A stretch of DNA of 64,000 nt from the NCBI RefSeq assembly GCF_008728195.1, contig NZ_CP031598.1, positions 310,001-374,000 on the forward strand, given 5' to 3'. A model generated the notes under the pieces. That model was given only the letters and a program-made list of their open reading frames with translations, was not told the DNA's origin and did not search any database. The stretch comes from Roseovarius indicus (lineage in GTDB: Bacteria; Pseudomonadota; Alphaproteobacteria; Rhodobacterales; Rhodobacteraceae). Shown here piece after piece: positions 10,758 through 26,298 of the stretch (its first letter is position 1; each line of letters opens with the position of its first letter). A program made the position numbers and the translations under genes.

Positions 10758-10804
10758 CCGCTTTCTTGAAAAGAAAGCGGATCGAAATCTTTTGAAGATT
10801 TCGA
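10758..10804. repeat. Double-hairpin palindromic element
   Basis: Two adjacent hairpins separated by one base: CCGCTTTCTT/AAGAAAGCGG around GAA, and TCGAAATCTT/AAGATTTCGA around TTG, each a perfect 10-bp stem. It lies between the convergent ends of degP and the toxin gene, so it could end transcription from either side. Its architecture recalls the triple-palindrome elements at 19.8, 24.4 and 25.9 kb, but the sequence differs. Confidence 0.8.
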
Positions 10805-17667: not shown

Positions 17668-18436
17668 GCAGCATCCAGGCGCCCATCGCGATCATCACGA
17701 GGTTCTCGGTCAGCGAGACGAAGCCCAGGGGCACGTTGGAATTGCCGCCGACACAGGCGCATTTCAACTCGCGCTTGTCGACATAGACCGCCTTGAAGAC
17801 CGAAACGGCGCCCACCGTGCCGATGAACAGCGCCACCGGCGCGGCCAGCCATATGAGCGCGCCGGCGATCATCAGGATGCCCGCCAGCGCCTCGCCGAAC
17901 GGGTAGAGATAGCCGTAGGGCACCCAGCGCCGGGCGAGCAGGTCGTAGTTGAGGAACATGGTGGAGAAGCTCTCCACGTCCTGCAGCTTCTGCACGGCGA
18001 GAAGAGTCATGGCGGTGGCGGCGAACCACTCGACCGTGCGGATGGCGAAGACCGTGCCCAGCGATGCCCAGGCGATTGCCAGCGCGACCAGGGCCGAGAC
18101 GGCAAAGATGGCGATGACGGGGGTGTAGGAGGTCTCGCCCTCCTTCGTCACCGAATGGCCGAGCCGTTCGCGCAACTCCTCGTAGCCGCCGACACGTTCA
18201 CCGCCGATATAGGTCTGCGGCGTGGTCTTCACGCCTTCGCGCTCCATGAAAGCGTCCACCTCCTCGCGGTTGGTGAGCAGGTGGTCGTCGACCTCGTAGC
18301 CCGAGCGTTTGAGCAGCCAGCGCGATTTCAGTCCGAACGGGCAAAGGTGGCCCGGCATGTTCATCCGGTAAAGGCTGGCGGTGCGGGTGTCGGCGGGGGC
18401 GGTGGTGTCTGCGGTTGCATCGGTCATGATACTCAT
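17660..18436 (-). CDS. Glutaredoxin domain fused to a MauE/DoxX-like membrane domain
   Basis: A 258-residue fusion. Residues about 20-95 form a glutaredoxin-like domain with a single-cysteine CPFG site (NMPGHLCPFGLKSRWLL), the TPQTYIGG cis-Pro segment and GGYEELRE. Residues from about 105 form four or more transmembrane helices ending in ELKCACVGGNSNVPLG, typical of MauE/MethylAmine-utilisation-like electron-transfer membrane proteins. It may pass thiol redox equivalents across the membrane, which is inference. Its start overlaps the apparent end of the amine oxidase frame (ATGA). Confidence 0.82.
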   Translation of the reverse strand: MSIMTDATADTTAPADTRTASLYRMNMPGHLCPFGLKSRWLLKRSGYEVDDHLLTNREEVDAFMEREGVKTTPQTYIGGERVGGYEELRERLGHSVTKEGETSYTPVIAIFAVSALVALAIAWASLGTVFAIRTVEWFAATAMTLLAVQKLQDVESFSTMFLNYDLLARRWVPYGYLYPFGEALAGILMIAGALIWLAAPVALFIGTVGAVSVFKAVYVDKRELKCACVGGNSNVPLGFVSLTENLVMIAMGAWMLLK

Positions 18437-19734
18437 GAAACGTGCCAGCCCCGCTCCCTGTTCCGAGCCACGCCCGGCCCCGGCCACTCGCCCCACAGTT
18501 TCATTGTTCCAAAAATACTCGAATCCGCCGCCTGCCACGCGCGCGTCGGCTGCAACAGGATCGCCCCGGTCACGCCGGAAACAGCCTCGCAATCTCCTGC
18601 GCCTTGTCGCGCCCGCTCTGATAGGCGCCGCTGATGCGCCGCGCCGGGGCGGGGGGTGGCATAGCTGCCGCCGATCAGCGGGTTGCGGCGCCAGGTGCTG
18701 GTGCCGGTGGCGATGATCCGTTTGCCGAACGCGCTGCCGAAGGCGAGGCAAAGCCGCTCCACCGCCAGGGCGGTCATGGCGGCGGGGCCGTCGGCCACGG
18801 CCGCTCCGGCGGCGTCGCCGCCGAGATGGGCGATGAACACCGGGGGCGGGCCGGGCATGACCTGGAAATCCACAGCCGTCTGGCCCGAGCCGGGGTCGAC
18901 CATGCAGAAGATCTTGCCCGCCACCTCCGGCGGCAGGTCGGGCACCGCCACCGCGACCTTTTCGTAGGTGCCGCAGGGCAGGTCGGCCACGGTCTCGAGA
19001 AACGCGGCGGTCTCGCCGCCGGTGAACCGGATCGCGCCGGACGTCAGAACGTTGGTCGAGACTGTCACGATCGCTGCACCTGCGGTGATCTGCCCGTCCG
19101 GGGTGTGAACCTCGACCGTGCCGGGGTGCTCGACGATCTGGTCGACGGGCAGGCCCGTCCTGATCGGCAGCCCGGCTGCCATGCCCGCAATCAGCGCGCC
19201 ATAGCCCGAGACGACGGGCCAGTCGGCCCCGGTATCCTCGTAATCCCGGTAACCCGGGGCCGAAACCTGGTCCGGGTCGGCGCCCGCCATGTATTGCAGG
19301 ATGCACCTGACCCCGGCGGTCCAGCGCCCCGCATCGGGCAGCACCTGCTGGATCGAGACGTCGCGGCCCGCCGATGCGGCCGCTTCGATCGCGGCGCAGG
19401 CCGCTTGCGTTGCGGCCCCGGCCTGCTCCAGCTCGGCAGGCGAGGCGAACCTGCCGCCCTGCCAGATGGCAAAGTGATCCTGGCGCTCTTCCATGAAATA
19501 CGCCGCGCCCAGCCGGTCGGCCCAGGGCACCAGCGGATTGACATCGCCCGAATGCAGCCAGTGACAGCCGTGATCCCACGGAACGGGCAGGGAGGTCGTA
19601 TCGGTCAGGGCGCGGCCGCCGATACGGTCGGCGGCCTCGAGCATGACAAAGCGCAGGCCGGTGCCGGCCAGTTCCAGCCCGGCCCCGATTCCGGCGGCCC
19701 CGGCCCCTATGATGACGACGTCGAATTCCGGCAT
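18433..19734 (-). CDS. FAD-dependent amine oxidase-like gene, C-terminus apparently broken
   Basis: A 433-codon frame beginning with the dinucleotide motif FDVVIIGAGAAGIGAGLELA and continuing as a flavin amine oxidase through STWRRNPLIGGSYATPRPG. After that, about residue 370, the expected FFAGEA-type segment is absent and the frame becomes low-quality. The neighbouring frame instead encodes ISGAYQSGRDKAQEIARLF and stops at 18570, a good match to the normal end of the family. A deletion of roughly 30 codons with a frameshift is the simplest reading, so this is probably a pseudogene. The alternative that the long frame is used is kept open because it ends in an ATGA overlap with the next gene. 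Confidence 0.75.
   Translation of the reverse strand: MPEFDVVIIGAGAAGIGAGLELAGTGLRFVMLEAADRIGGRALTDTTSLPVPWDHGCHWLHSGDVNPLVPWADRLGAAYFMEERQDHFAIWQGGRFASPAELEQAGAATQAACAAIEAAASAGRDVSIQQVLPDAGRWTAGVRCILQYMAGADPDQVSAPGYRDYEDTGADWPVVSGYGALIAGMAAGLPIRTGLPVDQIVEHPGTVEVHTPDGQITAGAAIVTVSTNVLTSGAIRFTGGETAAFLETVADLPCGTYEKVAVAVPDLPPEVAGKIFCMVDPGSGQTAVDFQVMPGPPPVFIAHLGGDAAGAAVADGPAAMTALAVERLCLAFGSAFGKRIIATGTSTWRRNPLIGGSYATPRPGAAHQRRLSERARQGAGDCEAVSGVTGAILLQPTRAWQAADSSIFGTMKLWGEWPGPGVARNRERGWHVS
18499..18520 (-). repeat. Dispersed ATATTT-type motif, AACAATGAAA variant
   Basis: Read on the minus strand this is GAGTATTTTTGGAACAATGA plus AA, identical over 22 bases to one arm of the inverted pair at 47387-47408. 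It lies just past the displaced stop of the amine oxidase and upstream of the glutaredoxin-fusion gene. Confidence 0.8.
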
Positions 19735-19775
19735 CCGTCAGTTTTGCGGTACAGGTGCCTCAAACGCAACGGGGG

Positions 19776-19843
19776 CCGGAATTTTCGAAAATTCCGGGGT
19801 AGAAAATACGTATTTTCTACCCCGTTTTCCGCGCGGAAAACGG
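19776..19843. repeat. Triple-palindrome element, copy 1
   Basis: Three perfect palindromes overlap by 2 bases each: 22 bp (19776-19797, half-site CCGGAATTTTC), 28 bp (19796-19823, half-site GGGGTAGAAAATAC) and 22 bp (19822-19843, half-site CCGTTTTCCGC). The 68-bp block lies between the amine oxidase start and the rplT terminator. Order is inverted relative to copies 2 and 3. Confidence 0.92.
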
Positions 19844-19866
19844 CGCCGGCCGCCCCCGTAAAAGAA

Positions 19867-19899
19867 AAACGCCGCCGGCATCTCTGCGCGGCGGCGTTT
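19867..19899 (-). terminator. Intrinsic terminator of rpmI-rplT
   Basis: On the minus strand a GC-rich stem (AAACGCCGCCG against CGGCGGCGTTT) with an 11-base loop is followed by a run of T interrupted by one C, 26 bases after the rplT stop. Confidence 0.88.
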
Positions 19900-19924
19900 C
19901 CGTTTGTCCCTCGGTGCGACTGGC

Positions 19925-20290
19925 TTACTGGGCCAATGCGCTTTTTGCCTGCTCGACGATGGCGCCGAATGCCGCCGGCTCGTGCACGGCCAGGTCGGCG
20001 AGAACCTTGCGGTCGACCTCGACGCCGGCCAGGCTCAGGCCGTTGACGAAGCGCGAATAGGTCAGGCTTTCATCATGGGCGCGCACCGCGGCGTTGATCC
20101 GCTGGATCCACAGCGCACGGAAGTTGCGCTTGCGGTTCTTGCGGTCGCGGGTGGCGTACTGGTTGGCCTTGTCGACGGCCTGTGCCGCCACCTTGTAGGT
20201 GTTCTTGCGGCGGCCGTAATAGCCTTTCGCGGCGCTGGTGACTTTCTTGTGACGGGCGTGGGTAACTGTCCCACCTTTAACGCGTGCCAT
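19925..20290 (-). CDS. rplT: 50S ribosomal protein L20
   Basis: A 121-residue, strongly basic protein with the L20 signature ([38 protein letters not shown]). It binds 23S rRNA early in large-subunit assembly. It follows rpmI after 13 bases. In many bacteria infC precedes and pheST follows; neither is adjacent here. Confidence 0.98.
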
Positions 20291-20303
20291 TGATCAGTTC
20301 TCC

Positions 20304-20504
20304 TTAGCGCGAATAGGGCATCATCGGCTTGATGATCTTCTCATCAGCCTTGCTCAGCGTGGTCGTGCCACGCGCGTCGCGGATGAACTTGTTGGTGCGC
20401 TTGATCATCCCGTGCTGTTTGCCAGCCTGGGCGCGGATGATCTTGCCGCTGCCGCTTACCTTGAACCGCTTCTTGCAGCTCGATTTTGTCTTCATCTTGG
20501 GCAT
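20304..20504 (-). CDS. rpmI: 50S ribosomal protein L35
   Basis: A 66-residue basic protein, [20 protein letters not shown] onward, with the L35 signature [17 protein letters not shown] and a basic [12 protein letters not shown] segment. Length is normal. It starts a two-gene operon with rplT; the 120 bases upstream must hold the promoter, as infC is absent. Confidence 0.98.
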
Positions 20505-20624
20505 TTCCGGCTCCTTTGTCGGTCGGTTGTTCTACGCGACTCGGCATGCCACTCCGGCCGGCCGCGCTGATGAGCGGGCCGTATACGAGCTTCCCGCCTT
20601 CCGTGCAAGGGAAAATCCGGGCGT

Positions 20625-21260
20625 TCAGCCGGGCTCGTGGACGTGCCCGGCCTCCTCGCGCCGCTCGTCCAGCGCCTGCCGGATGATCTGAACCGACGAC
20701 GACAGGAAGAGCCCCGCCATGATACCCGCGACCAGAAGGTCGGGCCAGCCAGTCGTGGTGCCCCAGACGCCGAGGGCCGCCAGCATCACCGCGACATTGC
20801 CGATCGCATCGTTACGCGAACAGAGCCAGACCGAGCGCACGTTGGCATCGCCATCCTTGTACTGCATCAGCAGCAGCACGCTGGCCAGGTTGGCCGCCAG
20901 CGCCATGACCCCCACGACGCCCATGATCCCCGCCTCGGGCACGCCGGTCACGAAGACCCGGTAGACGGTCGAGCCGAACACCCACGTGCCCATGAGCAGC
21001 AGGCTGACGCCCTTGGCCAGCGCGGCCGTGGTGCGCACATGTACCGATGCGCCGATCACCGCCAGCGAGATGCCATAGGTCAGCGCATCGCCCAGGAAAT
21101 CGAGCGCGTCCGCCTTCAGCGCCTGCGACTGCGCGGCCCGGCCGGCGCTCATCTCGACGACGAACATCGCCGCGTTGATGGCGATGACTGCCCAGAGCCT
21201 GCGTTTGTAAGCGGCCGACACCCCGTCGAACCGCGCCTCATGTCCACAACAGCCTGCCAT
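20625..21260 (-). CDS. Cation diffusion facilitator (CDF) metal exporter
   Basis: A 211-residue inner-membrane transporter with about six helices. The metal-site motif LKADALDFLGDALTYG in helix 2 (Asp-x3-Asp) and LCSRNDAIGNVAVML in helix 5 are the paired CDF features. It lacks the long cytoplasmic C-terminal domain of larger CDF proteins. The N-terminus MAGCCGHEARF has Cys and His that could sense or bind metal. It is divergent from a MerR gene with a MerR-type promoter between them, so it probably exports Zn, Cd, Co or a similar ion. Confidence 0.88.
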   Translation of the reverse strand: MAGCCGHEARFDGVSAAYKRRLWAVIAINAAMFVVEMSAGRAAQSQALKADALDFLGDALTYGISLAVIGASVHVRTTAALAKGVSLLLMGTWVFGSTVYRVFVTGVPEAGIMGVVGVMALAANLASVLLLMQYKDGDANVRSVWLCSRNDAIGNVAVMLAALGVWGTTTGWPDLLVAGIMAGLFLSSSVQIIRQALDERREEAGHVHEPG

Positions 21261-21290
21261 GGCGTACCTCGTTGAAATCGCGTTACCCGT

Positions 21291-21321
21291 AACCTAATCT
21301 CTCTAGTAACTAGAGCTTCAA
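21291..21321 (-). promoter_or_regulatory. MerR-type promoter for the CDF exporter, 19-bp spacer
   Basis: On the minus strand TTGAAG (21316-21321) and TAGGTT (21291-21296) are separated by exactly 19 bp, the overlong spacer typical of MerR-activated promoters. The spacer contains the dyad CTCTAG-TTA-CTAGAG, the expected MerR operator. This explains the divergent arrangement with the regulator gene. Confidence 0.78.
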
Positions 21322-21332
21322 GGGGGTTTTTG

Positions 21333-21761
21333 ATGTATTCCATCGGAGAATTGTCCCGCCGCACCGGGGTCAAGGTGCCCACCATCCGCTATTACGAGGA
21401 GATGGGCCTGATTGCCGCCGCCGGGCGCACCTCGGGGAACCAGCGCCGCTATGGCCGCGACGAGCTGGAGCAGCTGGGGTTCATCCGCCATGCGCGCGAT
21501 CTGGGTTTTCCGCTGGGGGCGATCTCGTCGCTCATCGAGTTGCAGCGCCACCCCGACCGCACCTGTCGCGAGGCGTCGGAGATCGCGCAGGCGCAGCTCG
21601 ATGACGTGCGGGAGAAGATCGCGCGGCTCAGGGCGCTCGAGACGGAGCTGGGCCGGATCGTCGACGGCTGTTCGGGCGAGGGGACGCCGGAGGAGTGCTA
21701 TGTGCTGGCCTCGCTGTCGGACCACGACCTGTGCGAAACCGAGCATGGGCAGGGGCATTAG
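21333..21761 (+). CDS. MerR-family heavy-metal-responsive regulator
   Basis: A 142-residue regulator. An N-terminal winged helix-turn-helix (MYSIGELSRRTGVKVPTIRY, then YEEMGLI) is followed by a dimerisation coiled-coil and a C-terminal cysteine/histidine-rich loop (DGCSGEGTPEECYVLASL, then CETEHGQGH) like the metal sites of ZntR and CadR. The ATG giving MYSIGEL was chosen as it follows AAGGGGG. It should activate the divergent CDF exporter when it binds its metal. Confidence 0.9.
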   Translation: MYSIGELSRRTGVKVPTIRYYEEMGLIAAAGRTSGNQRRYGRDELEQLGFIRHARDLGFPLGAISSLIELQRHPDRTCREASEIAQAQLDDVREKIARLRALETELGRIVDGCSGEGTPEECYVLASLSDHDLCETEHGQGH

Positions 21762-21773
21762 CTCCGAGGCGGC

Positions 21774-21995
21774 TCAGATGAACTGCGCCACCACCCGCAC
21801 GAAGACCTCGGGGATTTCCTCGAGCGTGTAGCCGCCCGGCTGTTCGCGGAAGGCCCAGACGATCAGGCCGCCCCCGACGATGGCCACAACGGCCGCCACC
21901 CGCGGCGTGCGCCGGTCGGCAAAGGCCGACAGCATCGACGGCACCGAGAGAACCGCCAGAACGATACCGATGATTAGCAGAAGATCTGGCTCCAC
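21774..21995 (-). CDS. Small two-helix membrane protein next to pyk
   Basis: A 73-residue protein, GTG start (VEPDLLLIIGIVLAVLSVPS), with two hydrophobic segments and a conserved-looking tail (YTLEEIPEVFVRVVAQFI). It lies 47 bases downstream of pyk on the same strand, an association I recall in Rhodobacterales. Function unknown. AAAGGAC precedes the GTG. Confidence 0.65.
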   Translation of the reverse strand: MEPDLLLIIGIVLAVLSVPSMLSAFADRRTPRVAAVVAIVGGGLIVWAFREQPGGYTLEEIPEVFVRVVAQFI

Positions 21996-22042
21996 GTGCG
22001 GTCCTTTTCCGAAAGGGGCCGGGGCCGGCCCTGGCGGGCAGG

Positions 22043-23488
22043 TTAGCCCGGATCGGTGGCGTAAATCAAACTTTCCTGACAGGGCGCGACGCGCAGGATG
22101 TTGGTTGTTCCCGGCACGTTGAACGGCACCCCGGCGGTGACGACGATCTGGTCGAGCGGCTCGGCATAGCCCTGTTCCCGCGCCGCCCGCGCCGCGCCCA
22201 GCACGGCCTGCTTGAACCGGTCGAGCGTGCCGGTCATCACGCAGTTCACGCCCCATGTCAGCGCCAGCCGCCGGGCGGTGCCCACGAGGTTGGTCATGGC
22301 GATGATCGGCACGCGCGGCCGTTCGCGGGCGGTCAGCAGGGCGGTGGTGCCCGACTGCGAGAAACAGCAGATGGCGACGATATCGGTCGCCTCGGCGATC
22401 TCGCGCGCGGCGGCGACGATACCGTCGGCGACGGTGGTGCGGTCGACCACGCGCGACGCCTCGATGATCTGGGTATAGGTCGGGTCGTCCTCGACCTCGC
22501 GCGCGACATTGTCCATCGTCGTGACAGCCTCGACCGGGTACTGCCCCGCGGCGCTTTCGGCCGACAGCATCACCGCGTCGGTGCCCTCGTAGATGGCGGC
22601 GGCCACGTCGGAGACCTCGGCCCGGGTGGGCATCGGGCTTTCGATCATCGATTCGAGCATCTGGGTCGCCACGATCACCGGCTTGGCCGCGGCCCGGCAC
22701 TTGCGCACCAGCCGTTTCTGGATCGGCGGCACGTTCTGCACCGGCAGTTCGACACCCAGGTCGCCACGCGCCACCATGATCCCGTCAGAGGCGGCGAGAA
22801 TGTTGTCGAACCATTCGACCGCCGAGGGCTTCTCGATCTTCGACAGGATCGCGGCGCGGCCCCTGGCCAGCTCGCGGGCCTCCTCGACATCCGCCGCGCG
22901 CTGCACGAAGCTCAGCGCCAGCCAGTCGACGCCCAGCTCGCAGGCAAATTCCAGGTCCTCGCGGTCCTTCTCGGATAGCGCGGCGAGCGGCAGCACCACG
23001 TCGGGCACGTTCACCCCCTTGCGGTTCGAGATCGTGCCGCCGACGATCACCTCGGTTTCGGCGTAATCGGGGCCGCATTCGGTGACCCTGAGGCGGATCT
23101 TGCCGTCATTGACCAGCAGGGTCGAGCCCACCTCCAGCGCTTGGAAAATCTCCGGGTGGGGCAGGCAGACCCGGGCGCCATCCCCTTCCGCCCCGTCGAG
23201 ATCGAGCCGGAAGGACGCGCCTTCCTCAAGCTCCTCCTCGCCTTTGGCGAACGCCCCCACCCGCAGTTTCGGCCCTTGCAGGTCGGCCAGGATCCCGATC
23301 GGGCTGTTCAGCTCCTCCTCGATCTGGCGGATGATCCGGTGCTTCTCGCGAATGCCGTCATGGGTGCCGTGGCTCATGTTCAGCCGGAACACGTCGGCCC
23401 CGGCCTCGTGCAGGGCGCGGATCATCTCGTAGGTCTCGGACGAAGGCCCGAGCGTGGCGACGATCTTGACGTTGCGGTGGCGTCTCAT
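22043..23488 (-). CDS. pyk: Pyruvate kinase
   Basis: A 481-residue glycolytic enzyme that makes pyruvate and ATP from phosphoenolpyruvate and ADP. Visible motifs are RRHRNVKIVATLGPSS, FRLNMSHG, the signature ILSKIEKPSAVEWF, VARGDLGVELP and ATQMLESMIESPMPTRAE; the C-terminal allosteric domain is present. The ATG at MRRHRNVKIV was chosen because AAGGA lies 10 bases upstream and homologues begin there; an ATG 13 codons earlier lacks a ribosome site. Confidence 0.95.
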   Translation of the reverse strand: MRRHRNVKIVATLGPSSETYEMIRALHEAGADVFRLNMSHGTHDGIREKHRIIRQIEEELNSPIGILADLQGPKLRVGAFAKGEEELEEGASFRLDLDGAEGDGARVCLPHPEIFQALEVGSTLLVNDGKIRLRVTECGPDYAETEVIVGGTISNRKGVNVPDVVLPLAALSEKDREDLEFACELGVDWLALSFVQRAADVEEARELARGRAAILSKIEKPSAVEWFDNILAASDGIMVARGDLGVELPVQNVPPIQKRLVRKCRAAAKPVIVATQMLESMIESPMPTRAEVSDVAAAIYEGTDAVMLSAESAAGQYPVEAVTTMDNVAREVEDDPTYTQIIEASRVVDRTTVADGIVAAAREIAEATDIVAICCFSQSGTTALLTARERPRVPIIAMTNLVGTARRLALTWGVNCVMTGTLDRFKQAVLGAARAAREQGYAEPLDQIVVTAGVPFNVPGTTNILRVAPCQESLIYATDPG

Positions 23489-23680
23489 GCGGGCGAAATC
23501 CTTCGGCTTGGGGTCCGCCACGATCATTCAGCCGTGGCCGGGCATGTCAATGGGCCTGTCGCGAATGGCGGCGGGGTATACGGAAAGTCTGTTATCGCTA
23601 ACGGGTTTATGGTTGGTTATTACCCAATTCACATCCCCGCGCAACTGTCCTAGACCGTGCGCAAAGGACATGACACCCCG

Positions 23681-24421
23681 ATGACGTACCACCCGTTCGA
23701 GATCGAAGGGGCCGACCGCCCTGCGCGCTGGCTCGTGACCTGCGACCACGCGGCCAACACCGTGCCCCCGTTCGTGAATGGCGGCACGCTGGGGCTGGCC
23801 GAGGGCGACATGGCGCGCCACATCGCCTATGACGTGGGCGCGCTGGGCATGGCACGCGAACTCGCCCGGCAGCTCGACGCGCCCTTCATCGCCACCAATT
23901 TCTCGCGCCTCGTGATCGACCCGAACCGGGGCGAGGATGACCCGACGCTTCTGATGAAGCTCTATGACGGCACGATCATCCCGGGCAACCGGCATGCGGG
24001 CGACGAGGAGCTTCAGCTGCGGCTCAACCGGTGCTACCGGCCCTATCACACGGCTCTGGCGGAGCTGGCGGCGCGGCGGGCCGATACGGTGATCGTCTCG
24101 GTCCACAGCTTCACCCGCCAGCTTCAGGGCCGCCCGCCCCGGCCGTGGCATGTGGGCGTGCTTTACGCCGCCGACGAACGCCTGAGCCGCCCGCTGGCGG
24201 CGCGCCTGCGGCAAGAGCCCGACCTGTGCATCGGCGAGAACGAACCCTATGGCGGGCATCTGCCCGGCGACGCCATCGCGCGGCACGCCATCGCCTATGA
24301 GCGGCCCAACGTGTTGCTGGAAGTGCGCAACGACCTGATCGAGGAAGAGGCGGATCAGGTCGCGTGGGGGAGGCGCCTGGCGCCGCTTCTGGAGGACGCG
24401 GCGGAGACGGCGGGGGTGTAG
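23681..24421 (+). CDS. N-formylglutamate amidohydrolase-family protein
   Basis: A 246-residue zinc hydrolase-like protein of the HutG/FGase family. The motifs CDHAANTVP, DPNRGEDDP and VSVHSFTRQ (His) and a Glu in GENEPYGGH correspond to the family's metal and substrate site. No histidine-utilisation genes are near, so the in vivo substrate may differ from N-formylglutamate. It is divergent from pyk. A triple-palindrome element begins directly after its stop. Confidence 0.85.
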   Translation: MTYHPFEIEGADRPARWLVTCDHAANTVPPFVNGGTLGLAEGDMARHIAYDVGALGMARELARQLDAPFIATNFSRLVIDPNRGEDDPTLLMKLYDGTIIPGNRHAGDEELQLRLNRCYRPYHTALAELAARRADTVIVSVHSFTRQLQGRPPRPWHVGVLYAADERLSRPLAARLRQEPDLCIGENEPYGGHLPGDAIARHAIAYERPNVLLEVRNDLIEEEADQVAWGRRLAPLLEDAAETAGV

Positions 24422-24489
24422 CCGTTTTCCGCGCGGAAAACGGGGTAGAAAATGCGCATTTTCTACCCCGGAATTTGCGCAAATTCCGG
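24422..24489. repeat. Triple-palindrome element, copy 2
   Basis: Perfect palindromes of 22 bp (24422-24443, half-site CCGTTTTCCGC), 28 bp (24442-24469, half-site GGGGTAGAAAATGC) and 22 bp (24468-24489, half-site CCGGAATTTGC), overlapping by 2 bases each. It starts on the base after the stop of the upstream gene, so its first hairpin would form at the mRNA 3' end. Confidence 0.93.
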
Positions 24490-24574
24490 GCACGCCGACC
24501 GCAGCGTATCGCGTCGTCCGACGCCCTTGCGATCGACCCTCCACAAATGAACTCCATCTGCTAGGCTCGGGCGC

Positions 24575-25840
24575 ATGTTTCGGCTTCTCTCCGGCGTCTG
24601 GGCGCTTCTGCTCGGGATCGTGTTCATCATGCTGGGCAACGGCATGCATTTCACCCTGATCGGCCTGCGCGGCGGGATCGAGGGGTTTTCGGCCACTGAA
24701 CTCGCCATCGTCACCTCGGGCTATTTCCTGGGCTTCCTCTCGGGCGCCCGGATCACGCCGCTGATGATCCAGCGCGTGGGCCATGTGCGGGTCTTCGCCG
24801 CGCTGGGCAGTTTCATGTCGGCCGGGCTCATCGCCTTCCCGCTGGTGACCGACCCCATCGCCTGGACGGTGCTGCGCCTGCTGGTGGGGTTCTGCATGTC
24901 GGGCGTCTACGTGACCGCCGAAAGCTGGCTCAACGATTCCACCACCAACGAGACGCGCGGCTCGGTGCTGGCGGCCTACATGATCGCCCAGACCCTCGGG
25001 ATCATCGGCGCGCAGGGGCTTCTGACCCTCGGCGATGCCGGGACCGCGACGCTGTTCATCGGCGCCTCGATCCTCGTCTCCATCTCCTTCGGGCCGATCC
25101 TTCTGTCGGCGACGCCCGCGCCGGCGGCCAAGGTCGCCAAGCCGATGTCGCTGCGCCGGCTCTTCACCGGCTCGCCGCTCGGCACGGTGGGGATCTTCCT
25201 GCTGGGCGGGGTCTATGCCACGCAGTCGGGCATGGCGGCTGTTTTCGGCACCGAGATCGGCATGTCGTCCGATGCCATCGCGCTTCTGGTGGCGATGCTG
25301 TTCGGCGGCGCGCTGCTGCTGCAATACCCGATCGGCTGGCTGTCGGACCGGATGGACCGGCGCAAGCTGATCTTCGGCGCGGCGGTGCTGGGCGGGGTGT
25401 CCTGCGGGCTGGGCTGGATGGCGGGCGGCAACCTGTGGTTCCTGATGGCGGCGGCCTTCTTTGCCGGGGGCGTGACCACGCCGCTTTACGCCCTCTTCCT
25501 CGCCTACACGAACGACTTCCTCACGGCCGAGGAGATGCCGGCGGCCTCGGGCGGGCTCGTGTTCACCTTCGGTCTGGGCGCCATCGTGGGGCCGCTGCTG
25601 GCGGGCTGGGCGATGGGGCAGTTCTCTCCGTCGGCCTTCTGGCTGGTGCTGGGCGGCACCTTCGCCTTCATCGCGCTCTATGCCCTCTACCGGATGACCC
25701 AGCGCGCGGTGGCGCCGGCGGAGGAGACCGAGAGCTATCTCGGTGTCCTGCCCACCGCCTCGCCCGTCGCGGTGGAGGCCGCCGGGGCCTGGGCGGCGGA
25801 GCAGGCGGAACAGGACCGCGACGCGCAGGAGGAAGGCTGA
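24575..25840 (+). CDS. Major facilitator superfamily transporter
   Basis: A 421-residue protein with about twelve hydrophobic helices. The loop between helices 2 and 3 is SGARITPLMIQRVGHVRVFA and the matching loop in the second half is GWLSDRMDRRKLIFGAAVL, both variants of the MFS motif A. A soluble acidic, alanine-rich tail of about 45 residues follows the last helix. The substrate is unknown. It is flanked on both sides by triple-palindrome elements. Confidence 0.87.
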   Translation: MFRLLSGVWALLLGIVFIMLGNGMHFTLIGLRGGIEGFSATELAIVTSGYFLGFLSGARITPLMIQRVGHVRVFAALGSFMSAGLIAFPLVTDPIAWTVLRLLVGFCMSGVYVTAESWLNDSTTNETRGSVLAAYMIAQTLGIIGAQGLLTLGDAGTATLFIGASILVSISFGPILLSATPAPAAKVAKPMSLRRLFTGSPLGTVGIFLLGGVYATQSGMAAVFGTEIGMSSDAIALLVAMLFGGALLLQYPIGWLSDRMDRRKLIFGAAVLGGVSCGLGWMAGGNLWFLMAAAFFAGGVTTPLYALFLAYTNDFLTAEEMPAASGGLVFTFGLGAIVGPLLAGWAMGQFSPSAFWLVLGGTFAFIALYALYRMTQRAVAPAEETESYLGVLPTASPVAVEAAGAWAAEQAEQDRDAQEEG

Positions 25841-25858
25841 CCCGTCCGCGGCCGGGGG

Positions 25859-25925
25859 CGTTTTCCGCGCGGAAAACGGGAGAGAAAATGCGCATTTTCT
25901 CCCCCGGAATTTGCGCAAATTCCGG
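25859..25925. repeat. Triple-palindrome element, copy 3
   Basis: Palindromes at 25859-25878 (20 bp, CGTTTTCCGC half-site), 25878-25905 (28 bp, half-sites GGGAGAGAAAATGC and its near complement, one mismatched pair) and 25904-25925 (22 bp, CCGGAATTTGC half-site). Same order as copy 2. It lies between the convergent ends of the MFS gene and the DUF2200 gene. Confidence 0.92.
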
Positions 25926-25944
25926 GTGCCGCGCTCGAGGCCGC

Positions 25945-26298
25945 CTAGCCCGCCCGCAGGATTTTCTCCATCGCCTTGCCCTTGGCCAGCTCGTCCACCA
26001 GCTTGTCGAGGTAGCGGATCTCGCGCATCAGCGGCTCCTCGATCTGTTCGACCCGCACGCCACAGATCACGCCCGTGATCCCGCTTCGCGCCGGGTTCAT
26101 GCGGGGCGCCCGGGCGAAGAAGGTCTCGAAATCGCGCTCATCCGCCAGCACCGCCTTCAGCCCTGCCGCGTCATACCCGGTCAGCCAGTGGATGATCTGG
26201 TCGAGCTCTGCCCTGGTGCGGCCCTTCCGCTCGGCCTTGGCGACGTAGTGCGGGTAGACGCTCGCGAAACTCATCGAGAAGATCTTGTGCCGTGTCAT
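25945..26298 (-). CDS. DUF2200 protein
   Basis: A 117-residue soluble protein that opens with [20 protein letters not shown] and contains [26 protein letters not shown] and [20 protein letters not shown], the recognisable DUF2200 pattern. Length matches the family. The function of the family is not known to me. It stands alone, convergent with the MFS gene. Confidence 0.88.

Follow-up and report, generated by a model that had tools for sequence, protein, structure and literature searches.

Br-REP1 of Bradyrhizobium and Rhodopseudomonas is the closest published element that we found among open-licence PMC papers. The section of the paper describing it (Hahn et al. 2016, PMC5082802) reports an intergenic element, first found in the overlapping 3′ UTRs of convergent genes, whose three palindromes give three RNA stem-loops and whose central palindrome, CCGGAATCTCGAGATTCCGG, lies at about 200 sites and evolves fast. 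In eight Br-REP1 loci from one genome with 13 copies, an outer stem (CGTCATTCCGG...CCGGAATGACG) was seen by eye to enclose the three hairpins, a feature taken from those loci and not stated in that section of PMC5082802. Short extragenic palindromes, some of them near stop codons, are also described for enterobacterial REP/BIME elements and for GTAG/CGTC-tagged REPs in the parts of PMC3733652 and PMC12306157 that deal with them. No publication on the triple-hairpin element described here was found among the same open-licence papers. To our knowledge, transcript ending and stabilisation have been little mapped in marine Rhodobacterales.

The window, a 64,000-nt stretch of the Roseovarius indicus genome spanning positions 310001-374000 of its contig, contains three copies of this element (gene names throughout are readings of the translations):

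19776..19843, minus strand: copy 1, arm order A-B-C on the plus strand, so C>A reads on the minus strand; arms A 19776-19797, B 19796-19823, C 19822-19843; neighbours rplT (19925-20290, minus) and a FAD-dependent oxidoreductase-like gene (18433-19734, minus)
24422..24489, plus strand: copy 2, arm order C-B-A; arms C 24422-24443, B 24442-24469, A 24468-24489; neighbours an N-formylglutamate-amidohydrolase-like gene ending at 24421 and an MFS-like gene from 24575
25859..25925, plus strand: copy 3, arm order C-B-A; C arm 25859-25878, B core 25882-25901, A arm 25904-25925; convergent neighbours, the MFS-like gene (24575-25840, plus) and a small gene (25945-26298, minus)

All three copies are genuine. 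Allowing three mismatches at most, the window has three occurrences of each arm pattern, against 0.00 to 0.04 expected from 100 dinucleotide shuffles. They are intergenic and occur in both orientations, as the initial annotation had it. The palindromes of 22, 28 and 22 bp with 2-base overlaps that it described are present, by direct reading of the sequence, in copies 1 and 2 but not in copy 3, where one pair of the B palindrome is mismatched and the outermost C pair is unformed. Copy 2 folds as RNA at -34.5 kcal/mol from both strands (z -4.9 and -5.5) and copy 3 at -32.5 kcal/mol on the plus strand (z -4.4). The first base of copy 2 directly follows a TAG stop codon (0 nt), 85 nt ahead of the MFS-like gene start, and copy 3 is separated by 18 and 19 nt from two convergent stops, both in line with the earlier description. 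The 3′-end rule set out below does not hold for copy 1, which lies 81 nt past rplT and is followed after 41 nt by the next start codon; an ordinary terminator-like hairpin stands between rplT and this copy. A search of the whole window against Rfam at gathering score returned one tRNA and no match to the element, and all 12 matches in a permissive scan of 19700-26000 were below gathering.

As far as the section on Br-REP1 describes that element, it has in common with ours three stem-loops in a convergent gap or in what would here be a transcribed 3′ UTR. Its central palindrome resembles arm A of the host element (CCGGAATTT....AAATTCCGG), with no exact match in the host genome when no mismatches are allowed, and the host hairpins abut without the outer closing stem of the eight Br-REP1 loci. 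The tagged REPs differ in another way, since no unpaired GTAG or CGTC tag was seen by eye between or beside the stems in the 25 copies listed, and the host element is made of three different near-perfect hairpins in fixed order. Some copies do contain GTAG, but as part of the B stem. A RAYT-type enzyme is the usual explanation invoked for REPs; PF01797, the REP-associated tyrosine transposase, had no match in the host (control matches in 5 of 14 known genomes), and RAYT mobilisation was rejected on this basis. With neither RAYT gene nor tag nor closing stem found, the element is distinct from classical REPs and from Br-REP1, and it is a REP in the broad sense of dispersed extragenic palindromes biased to gene 3′ ends. 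We give about an even chance to the 68-bp block being a REP-like yet distinct Rhodobacteraceae 3′-end element, as part of the 3′-end reading developed below.

The initial annotation had named three copies without relatives as the outcome that would count against it, and the element instead belongs to a genome-wide dispersed family. Thirty-five host sites were analysed from the best model matches listed, together with 73 sites chosen in the same way from four congeners and a close relative. Of the host sites, 34 have all three arms, while the C arm of L025:1581 is poor. Across the family, model matches at E<=1e-4 occur in 42 of the 295 genomes (the host counted among them), and the relatives beyond this group are looser. 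The resulting 108 sites are drawn from the best of the model matches listed and comprise a single strand of each site, scoring about 52 bits or higher, with reverse-strand, weaker and overlapping loci dropped. L232, L274 and L282 (51.8 bits) and L275 (49.8) are not among them, whereas L025:1581, L277, L278 and L280 were kept despite one poor or cut arm. A3, in which both strands of each site are mixed and fitted to the model, supplied none of the counts. The unit is a block of about 68 bp with three abutting stem-loops of 9, 10-12 and 9 bp and loops of mostly 4 nt, in the fixed arm order C-B-A; the element occurs in either orientation. Paired changes occur in 12 of 28 pairs, against a shuffle mean of 3.9. 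Loops were self-complementary in 73 of 105, 48 of 108 and 63 of 106 cases. When 400 kb of host sequence was surveyed for hairpins, 16 arrays of at least two abutting hairpins came up, whereas three local shuffles gave 0-1 each. Of these arrays, 13 were taken further and the other three seem not to belong to the family.

Position relative to genes was assessed with our own codon-usage gene caller, trained on the host and applied to the other genomes too. Over tandem and convergent sites, the nearest stop codon is a median of 9 nt away and 63 of 93 sites lie within 15 nt, compared with a mean median of 26.9 nt and a mean of 32.7 such sites (maximum 46) in 2000 random placements within the same gaps. 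The upstream stop is closer than the downstream start at 38 of 49 sites in tandem gaps. Convergent gaps hold 16 of the 35 host sites (placement share 0.149, p=1.3e-5) and 12 of 22 in the relative G333 (placement share 0.125, p=2.8e-6). The bias to 3′ ends and convergent gaps suggested by copies 2 and 3 extends to the family. Orientation is unbiased (27/49), as expected for arms that are palindromes. Divergent gaps hold 9-11 of the 108 sites, some at positions common to several genomes.

Many copies are inherited, because flank comparison places 16 of the 22 G333 copies at host positions (two of the 16 by one flank only) and the nearest copy is the ortholog in 25 of 31 tested pairs. The 31 orthologous pairs, hand-picked from flank clusters with flank matches of at least 150 nt, have an identity of 91.6% in the element, 72.5% in intergenic flanks and 83.5% in coding flanks. 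Identity is higher in the element than in intergenic flanks in 26 of the 28 pairs with enough flank, and higher than in coding flanks in 27 of 31 pairs. Among the 23 pairs with coding flanks aligned at >=85% the number is 19, the figure used because one flank is not orthologous in some pairs. Being mostly better kept than the surrounding DNA suggests that the element is a working part rather than junk. Stem sites changed about one third as often as unpaired sites (85/1624 versus 52/355) in the 29 pairs of equal length, where B pairs in 69-70-nt copies are perhaps out of register. Between orthologs one-sided stem changes are commoner than paired ones: among 64 changed stem pairs, 16 are two-sided and paired, while one-sided changes lose a Watson-Crick pair in 30 cases and gain one in 7.

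The best explanation, which we hold with about as much belief as doubt on the grounds of position and selection, is that the element is an orientation-independent mRNA 3′-end module that acts in the transcript as an exonuclease barrier. RNA polymerase would read through the array and terminate downstream of it; Rho may account for most of this termination, as canonical terminators seem scarce in these gaps. Exonucleases working 3′ to 5′ would then shorten the transcript until the first intact hairpin halts them, which would fix and protect the mRNA 3′ end. One module could serve two convergent genes, reading much alike from both sides because each hairpin is a near-perfect palindrome, and three hairpins in a row would make it redundant, even with the first of them hidden under a terminating ribosome. 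Such a 3′-end function is testable, because the element is concrete, can be counted and comes in orthologous, decayed and paired-change variants.

Outside Roseovarius, arrays were found at 34 of the 61 loci inspected among matches in other genera (16/21 genomes; arrays with <30% A+T skipped), with 2-4 hairpins, loops of 3-6 nt and a median distance of 6 nt from the stop codon. We tentatively propose a Rhodobacteraceae-wide class of tandem-hairpin 3′-end modules, with two to four stem-loops flush with the stop and arm sequences that drift between genera. Many members of this class would be inherited in place and kept at least as well as the preceding genes, and they may share or take over the role of U-tract terminators, on both sides if the genes converge.

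RNA protection of 3′ ends, as the initial annotation had envisaged it, is the leading reading but unproven, and a wobble test divides on it. In transcript orientation, where a G.U excess had been expected, Roseovarius tandem sites have 19 A.C and 3 G.U pairs, nine of the 19 A.C at one outer B pair and some at orthologous sites; convergent sites, scored for the nearer gene, have 12 A.C and 7 G.U. This excess of A.C is the reverse of what an RNA hairpin should tolerate and counts against an RNA role there, as do the self-complementary loops, for which an RNA loop has no need. The prevalence of one-sided stem changes between orthologs, the copies in divergent gaps and the place of copy 1 beyond a terminator-like hairpin also speak against the 3′-end reading. 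Tandem sites of other genera have 9 G.U (three in GC-rich terminator-like hairpins) and 1 A.C, a lean that counts for an RNA role, and their convergent sites have 2 A.C and no G.U.

Action at the level of DNA would account for several of these features and is the most credible alternative, if a rather unlikely one. The palindromes would be binding sites for gyrase, a nucleoid protein or some dimeric protein, or they would form cruciforms that take up supercoils between converging transcription units, in the manner of BIMEs, and the enrichment in convergent gaps would follow from meeting positive supercoils and promoter avoidance. Near-perfect two-fold symmetry, the many self-complementary loops, the lack of orientation bias or of a G.U preference in Roseovarius transcripts and the copies in divergent gaps are consistent with this. 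However, DNA binding does not demand a near-zero stop-codon distance in tandem gaps, the variation of hairpin number, loop length and spacing by genus fits single-strand hairpins better than fixed dimer sites, and G.U outnumbers A.C at tandem sites outside Roseovarius.

We regard it as unlikely that the element is a bidirectional tandem-hairpin terminator without a U-tract, a reading to which its place behind stops and between convergent genes and the GTTTTCC that follows the B hairpin in the A>C orientation lend some support. That T-run geometry is found in one orientation only, yet orientation is unbiased. WebGeSTer reportedly recognises tandem ('V-shaped') and bidirectional ('X-shaped') classes of predicted terminators, which likewise present a row of hairpins behind genes, usable from both sides. 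The host element differs from these in being a dispersed homologous family and in having, by one simple criterion of our own, no canonical U-tract behind a hairpin at 75 of 78 scanned sites. The same scan does not support an intrinsic terminator (a GC-rich hairpin, then a U-tract), so the plain termination considered in the initial annotation was set aside. A missing canonical terminator is uninformative by itself, because convergent ends free of arrays also rarely carry one (5/72 and 5/66). Since gene ends in array-bearing convergent gaps have one in 3 of 8 and 1 of 10 cases, the array is not simply a terminator substitute.

A hairpin that holds up the ribosome at termination and thereby reduces the output of the preceding gene, as reported for E. 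coli REPs, is improbable. The 15-nt-from-stop rule for those REPs, cited in the relevant part of PMC12306157, would suit the majority of sites, but 30 of 93 lie further off and a stall needs no row of three hairpins.

The initial annotation had also raised a mobile palindromic unit, which finds weak support: some spread exists, because two copies at unrelated sites, L006 and L007, have the same sequence over the 67 bp listed, but most G333 copies sit at host positions. The family looks conserved and largely inherited, unlike a mobile parasite, and its host genome has no RAYT-type enzyme (PF01797). The ends share only CCG/CGG, and no target-site duplication is apparent by eye in the flanks listed. 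It is very improbable that this is a selfish REPIN/MITE-like miniature maintained solely through copying and palindrome repair in replication. Such an origin would suit the varying copy number (78, 49, 47, 39, 17 and 11 raw model matches per genome, both strands), the apparent deletion remnant at host site 2 and the absence of a recognisable element at site 3 in G333, and the ortholog pair L036/L271, where the element is largely replaced between well kept flanks. Against it, the plasmid collection has no match to the element and the viral contigs none to the C-plus-B-arm pattern, and carriage by plasmid or phage was rejected as far as records close to the host are represented there. The copies are conserved above their flanks, and palindrome repair alone should give equal rates of change in stems and unpaired sites, where the stems change far less often.

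The three 67-68-bp blocks that the initial annotation had placed in the window, each made of three abutting palindromes (arms A, B and C), were borne out at those positions by direct reading of the sequence:

19776-19843, minus strand: copy 1, near rplT
24422-24489, plus strand: copy 2, on one side of an MFS-like gene
25859-25925, plus strand: copy 3, on the other side of that gene

On the plus strand the arms run A-B-C in copy 1 and C-B-A in copies 2 and 3, and each arm pattern occurs three times in the window against 0.00-0.04 expected. Copy 2 folds as RNA into exactly three hairpins on either strand (-34.5 kcal/mol), and copies 1 and 3, folded as the plus strand only, give three hairpins each (-34.4 and -32.5 kcal/mol), with a middle loop of 8 nt in copy 3; fold z-scores range from -4.4 to -6.6. 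Behind rplT lies an ordinary GC-rich terminator-like hairpin (19867-19899), which drew a sub-threshold ctRNA_p42d match in a permissive Rfam scan (31.1 bits, gathering threshold 50).

The element is real and occurs across the family. BLAST of the host genome with copy 2 gave 77 matches, pieces and both strands counted, every one on contig C1, and 35 host sites were analyzed with R1, a covariance model built from 25 copies. At E<=1e-6, BLAST matches were found in 4 of 23 relatives of the same genus and in 0 of 16 genomes from other families of the class. With strict filters, R1 matched at E<=1e-4 in 42 of 295 genomes of the family, host counted, many of these matches being weak and the E-values rough, and in a class-wide sample (n=289) only in the host and one same-family genome. 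The host's genus is probably Roseovarius: the MFS-like protein is 95% identical to its counterpart in a Roseovarius-labelled MAG, G333 (locus L081), whose DNA aligns to the host at 85.6% identity across 6.6 kb.

Among 108 sites in the host, four congeners and one close relative, 49 lie between tandem genes, 44 between convergent and 9 between divergent genes, with 2 undecided and 4 overlapping a called gene. Convergent gaps are enriched (host 16/35, p=1.3e-5; G333 12/22, p=2.8e-6) and divergent gaps depleted (host 4/35, p=0.01; G333 3/22, p=0.04). The nearest stop codon is a median of 9 nt away, and within 15 nt at 63/93 sites, against a mean of 32.7 and maximum of 46 such sites for random placement (2000 draws). 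Orientation relative to transcription stood at 27/49. In other genera, hairpin arrays were present in 34/61 loci, with 2 to 4 hairpins and loops of 3-6 nt; 24 are tandem and 7 convergent, and these 31 lie a median of 6 nt from a stop.

The element is conserved at sites common to the genomes. By flank comparison, 16 of the 22 copies in G333 correspond to host positions, two of them matched on one flank only, and in 25 of 31 pairs a copy's best match in the other genome was its ortholog. Identity across these 31 pairs was 91.6% for the element, 72.5% for intergenic flanks and 83.5% for coding flanks; the element exceeded its own intergenic flanks in 26/28 pairs and coding flanks in 27/31 (19/23 where coding flanks aligned at >=85%). 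Some sites decay, as at host site 2, where G333 keeps an apparent remnant (the start of arm C and end of arm A), and host site 3, where G333 has no recognizable element. Some copying still goes on, since copies L006 and L007 are identical across the listed 67 bp at unrelated places. Two identical C-B double-hairpin arrays less than 300 bp apart (G333:C7 653236-653281 and 653507-653552) are apparently part of a local duplication.

The 28 pairs of the three helices are 96.6% formed among 24 distinct copies, in which both-sided changes affect 12/28 pairs against a shuffle mean of 3.9 and at most 4 in slid structures. A set of 66 unique 68-nt copies has 17 pairs with double changes in at least 2 copies (shuffle mean 8.1, maximum 10). 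In 29 equal-length orthologous pairs, 85/1624 stem versus 52/355 unpaired sites changed, and there are 16 in-place paired changes (for example L233/L009, L227/L262 and L245/L269), one-sided stem changes being commoner. One-sided change loses Watson-Crick pairing in 30 and gains it in 7 of 64 changed stem pairs between orthologs. Five of the 16 come from L036/L271 alone (genomes G006 and G012), an orthologous site where the element is largely replaced (44/68 identical) between flanks 88-93% identical, which suggests conversion between copies.

The element is a REP-like 3'-end repeat of a new variant. No Rfam family matches it, no REP tag was seen by eye in the copies, and the host has no PF01797 (RAYT transposase). 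The closest published element found was Br-REP1, reported as three stem-loops within overlapping 3' UTRs of convergent genes (PMC5082802); an exact search for the Br-REP1 consensus found nothing in the host. By eye, eight Br-REP1 loci of one genome, with 13 copies, are closed by an outer stem whose ends read CGTC, a feature that the present element lacks.

The element may act as an RNA 3'-end barrier independent of orientation, a mechanism to which we give roughly even chances. A barrier to exonucleases is plausible, because REPs are reported to stabilize 3' ends without terminating (PMC13289151), E. coli REPs within 15 nt of stops (446/4,072) are reported to affect translation (PMC12306157), and in Rhodobacter sphaeroides the resistance of 3' ends to PNPase has been ascribed, as one possibility, to stable structures (PMC7866481). 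That loop length and hairpin number vary speaks for single-strand hairpins; the self-complementarity of loops speaks against them. An element that works in the transcript should show more G.U than A.C mismatches in the direction of transcription. The RNA reading is weakest on these mismatch counts: Roseovarius tandem sites have 3 G.U versus 19 A.C (nine of the 19 fall on a single outer B pair, and orthologs are among the sites), and convergent sites, assigned by nearer gene, 7 versus 12. Other genera have 9 versus 1 at tandem loci, with GC-rich terminator-like hairpins supplying three of the nine, and 0 versus 2 at convergent loci.

A second type of tandem hairpin array lies at 10758-10804 of the window, CCGCTTTCTTGAAAAGAAAGCGG adjoining TCGAAATCTTTTGAAGATTTCGA, each with a loop of 3 nt. 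It is 5 nt away from the stop codon of a small gene on the minus strand, which faces a gene named degP/htrA-like from its translation. This type recurs at positions 281650 and 540220 of the host contig and three times within 400 kb of G333. Iteron-like runs of about four direct repeats, each about 11 bp long and of the type GTCGGTATnnC, were seen by eye in intergenic gaps near 281600, 304400 and 540000 of the host contig (L187, L188 and L199/L200) and near 393086, 427845 and 482502 of G333 contig C7; hairpin arrays are present in these gaps too.
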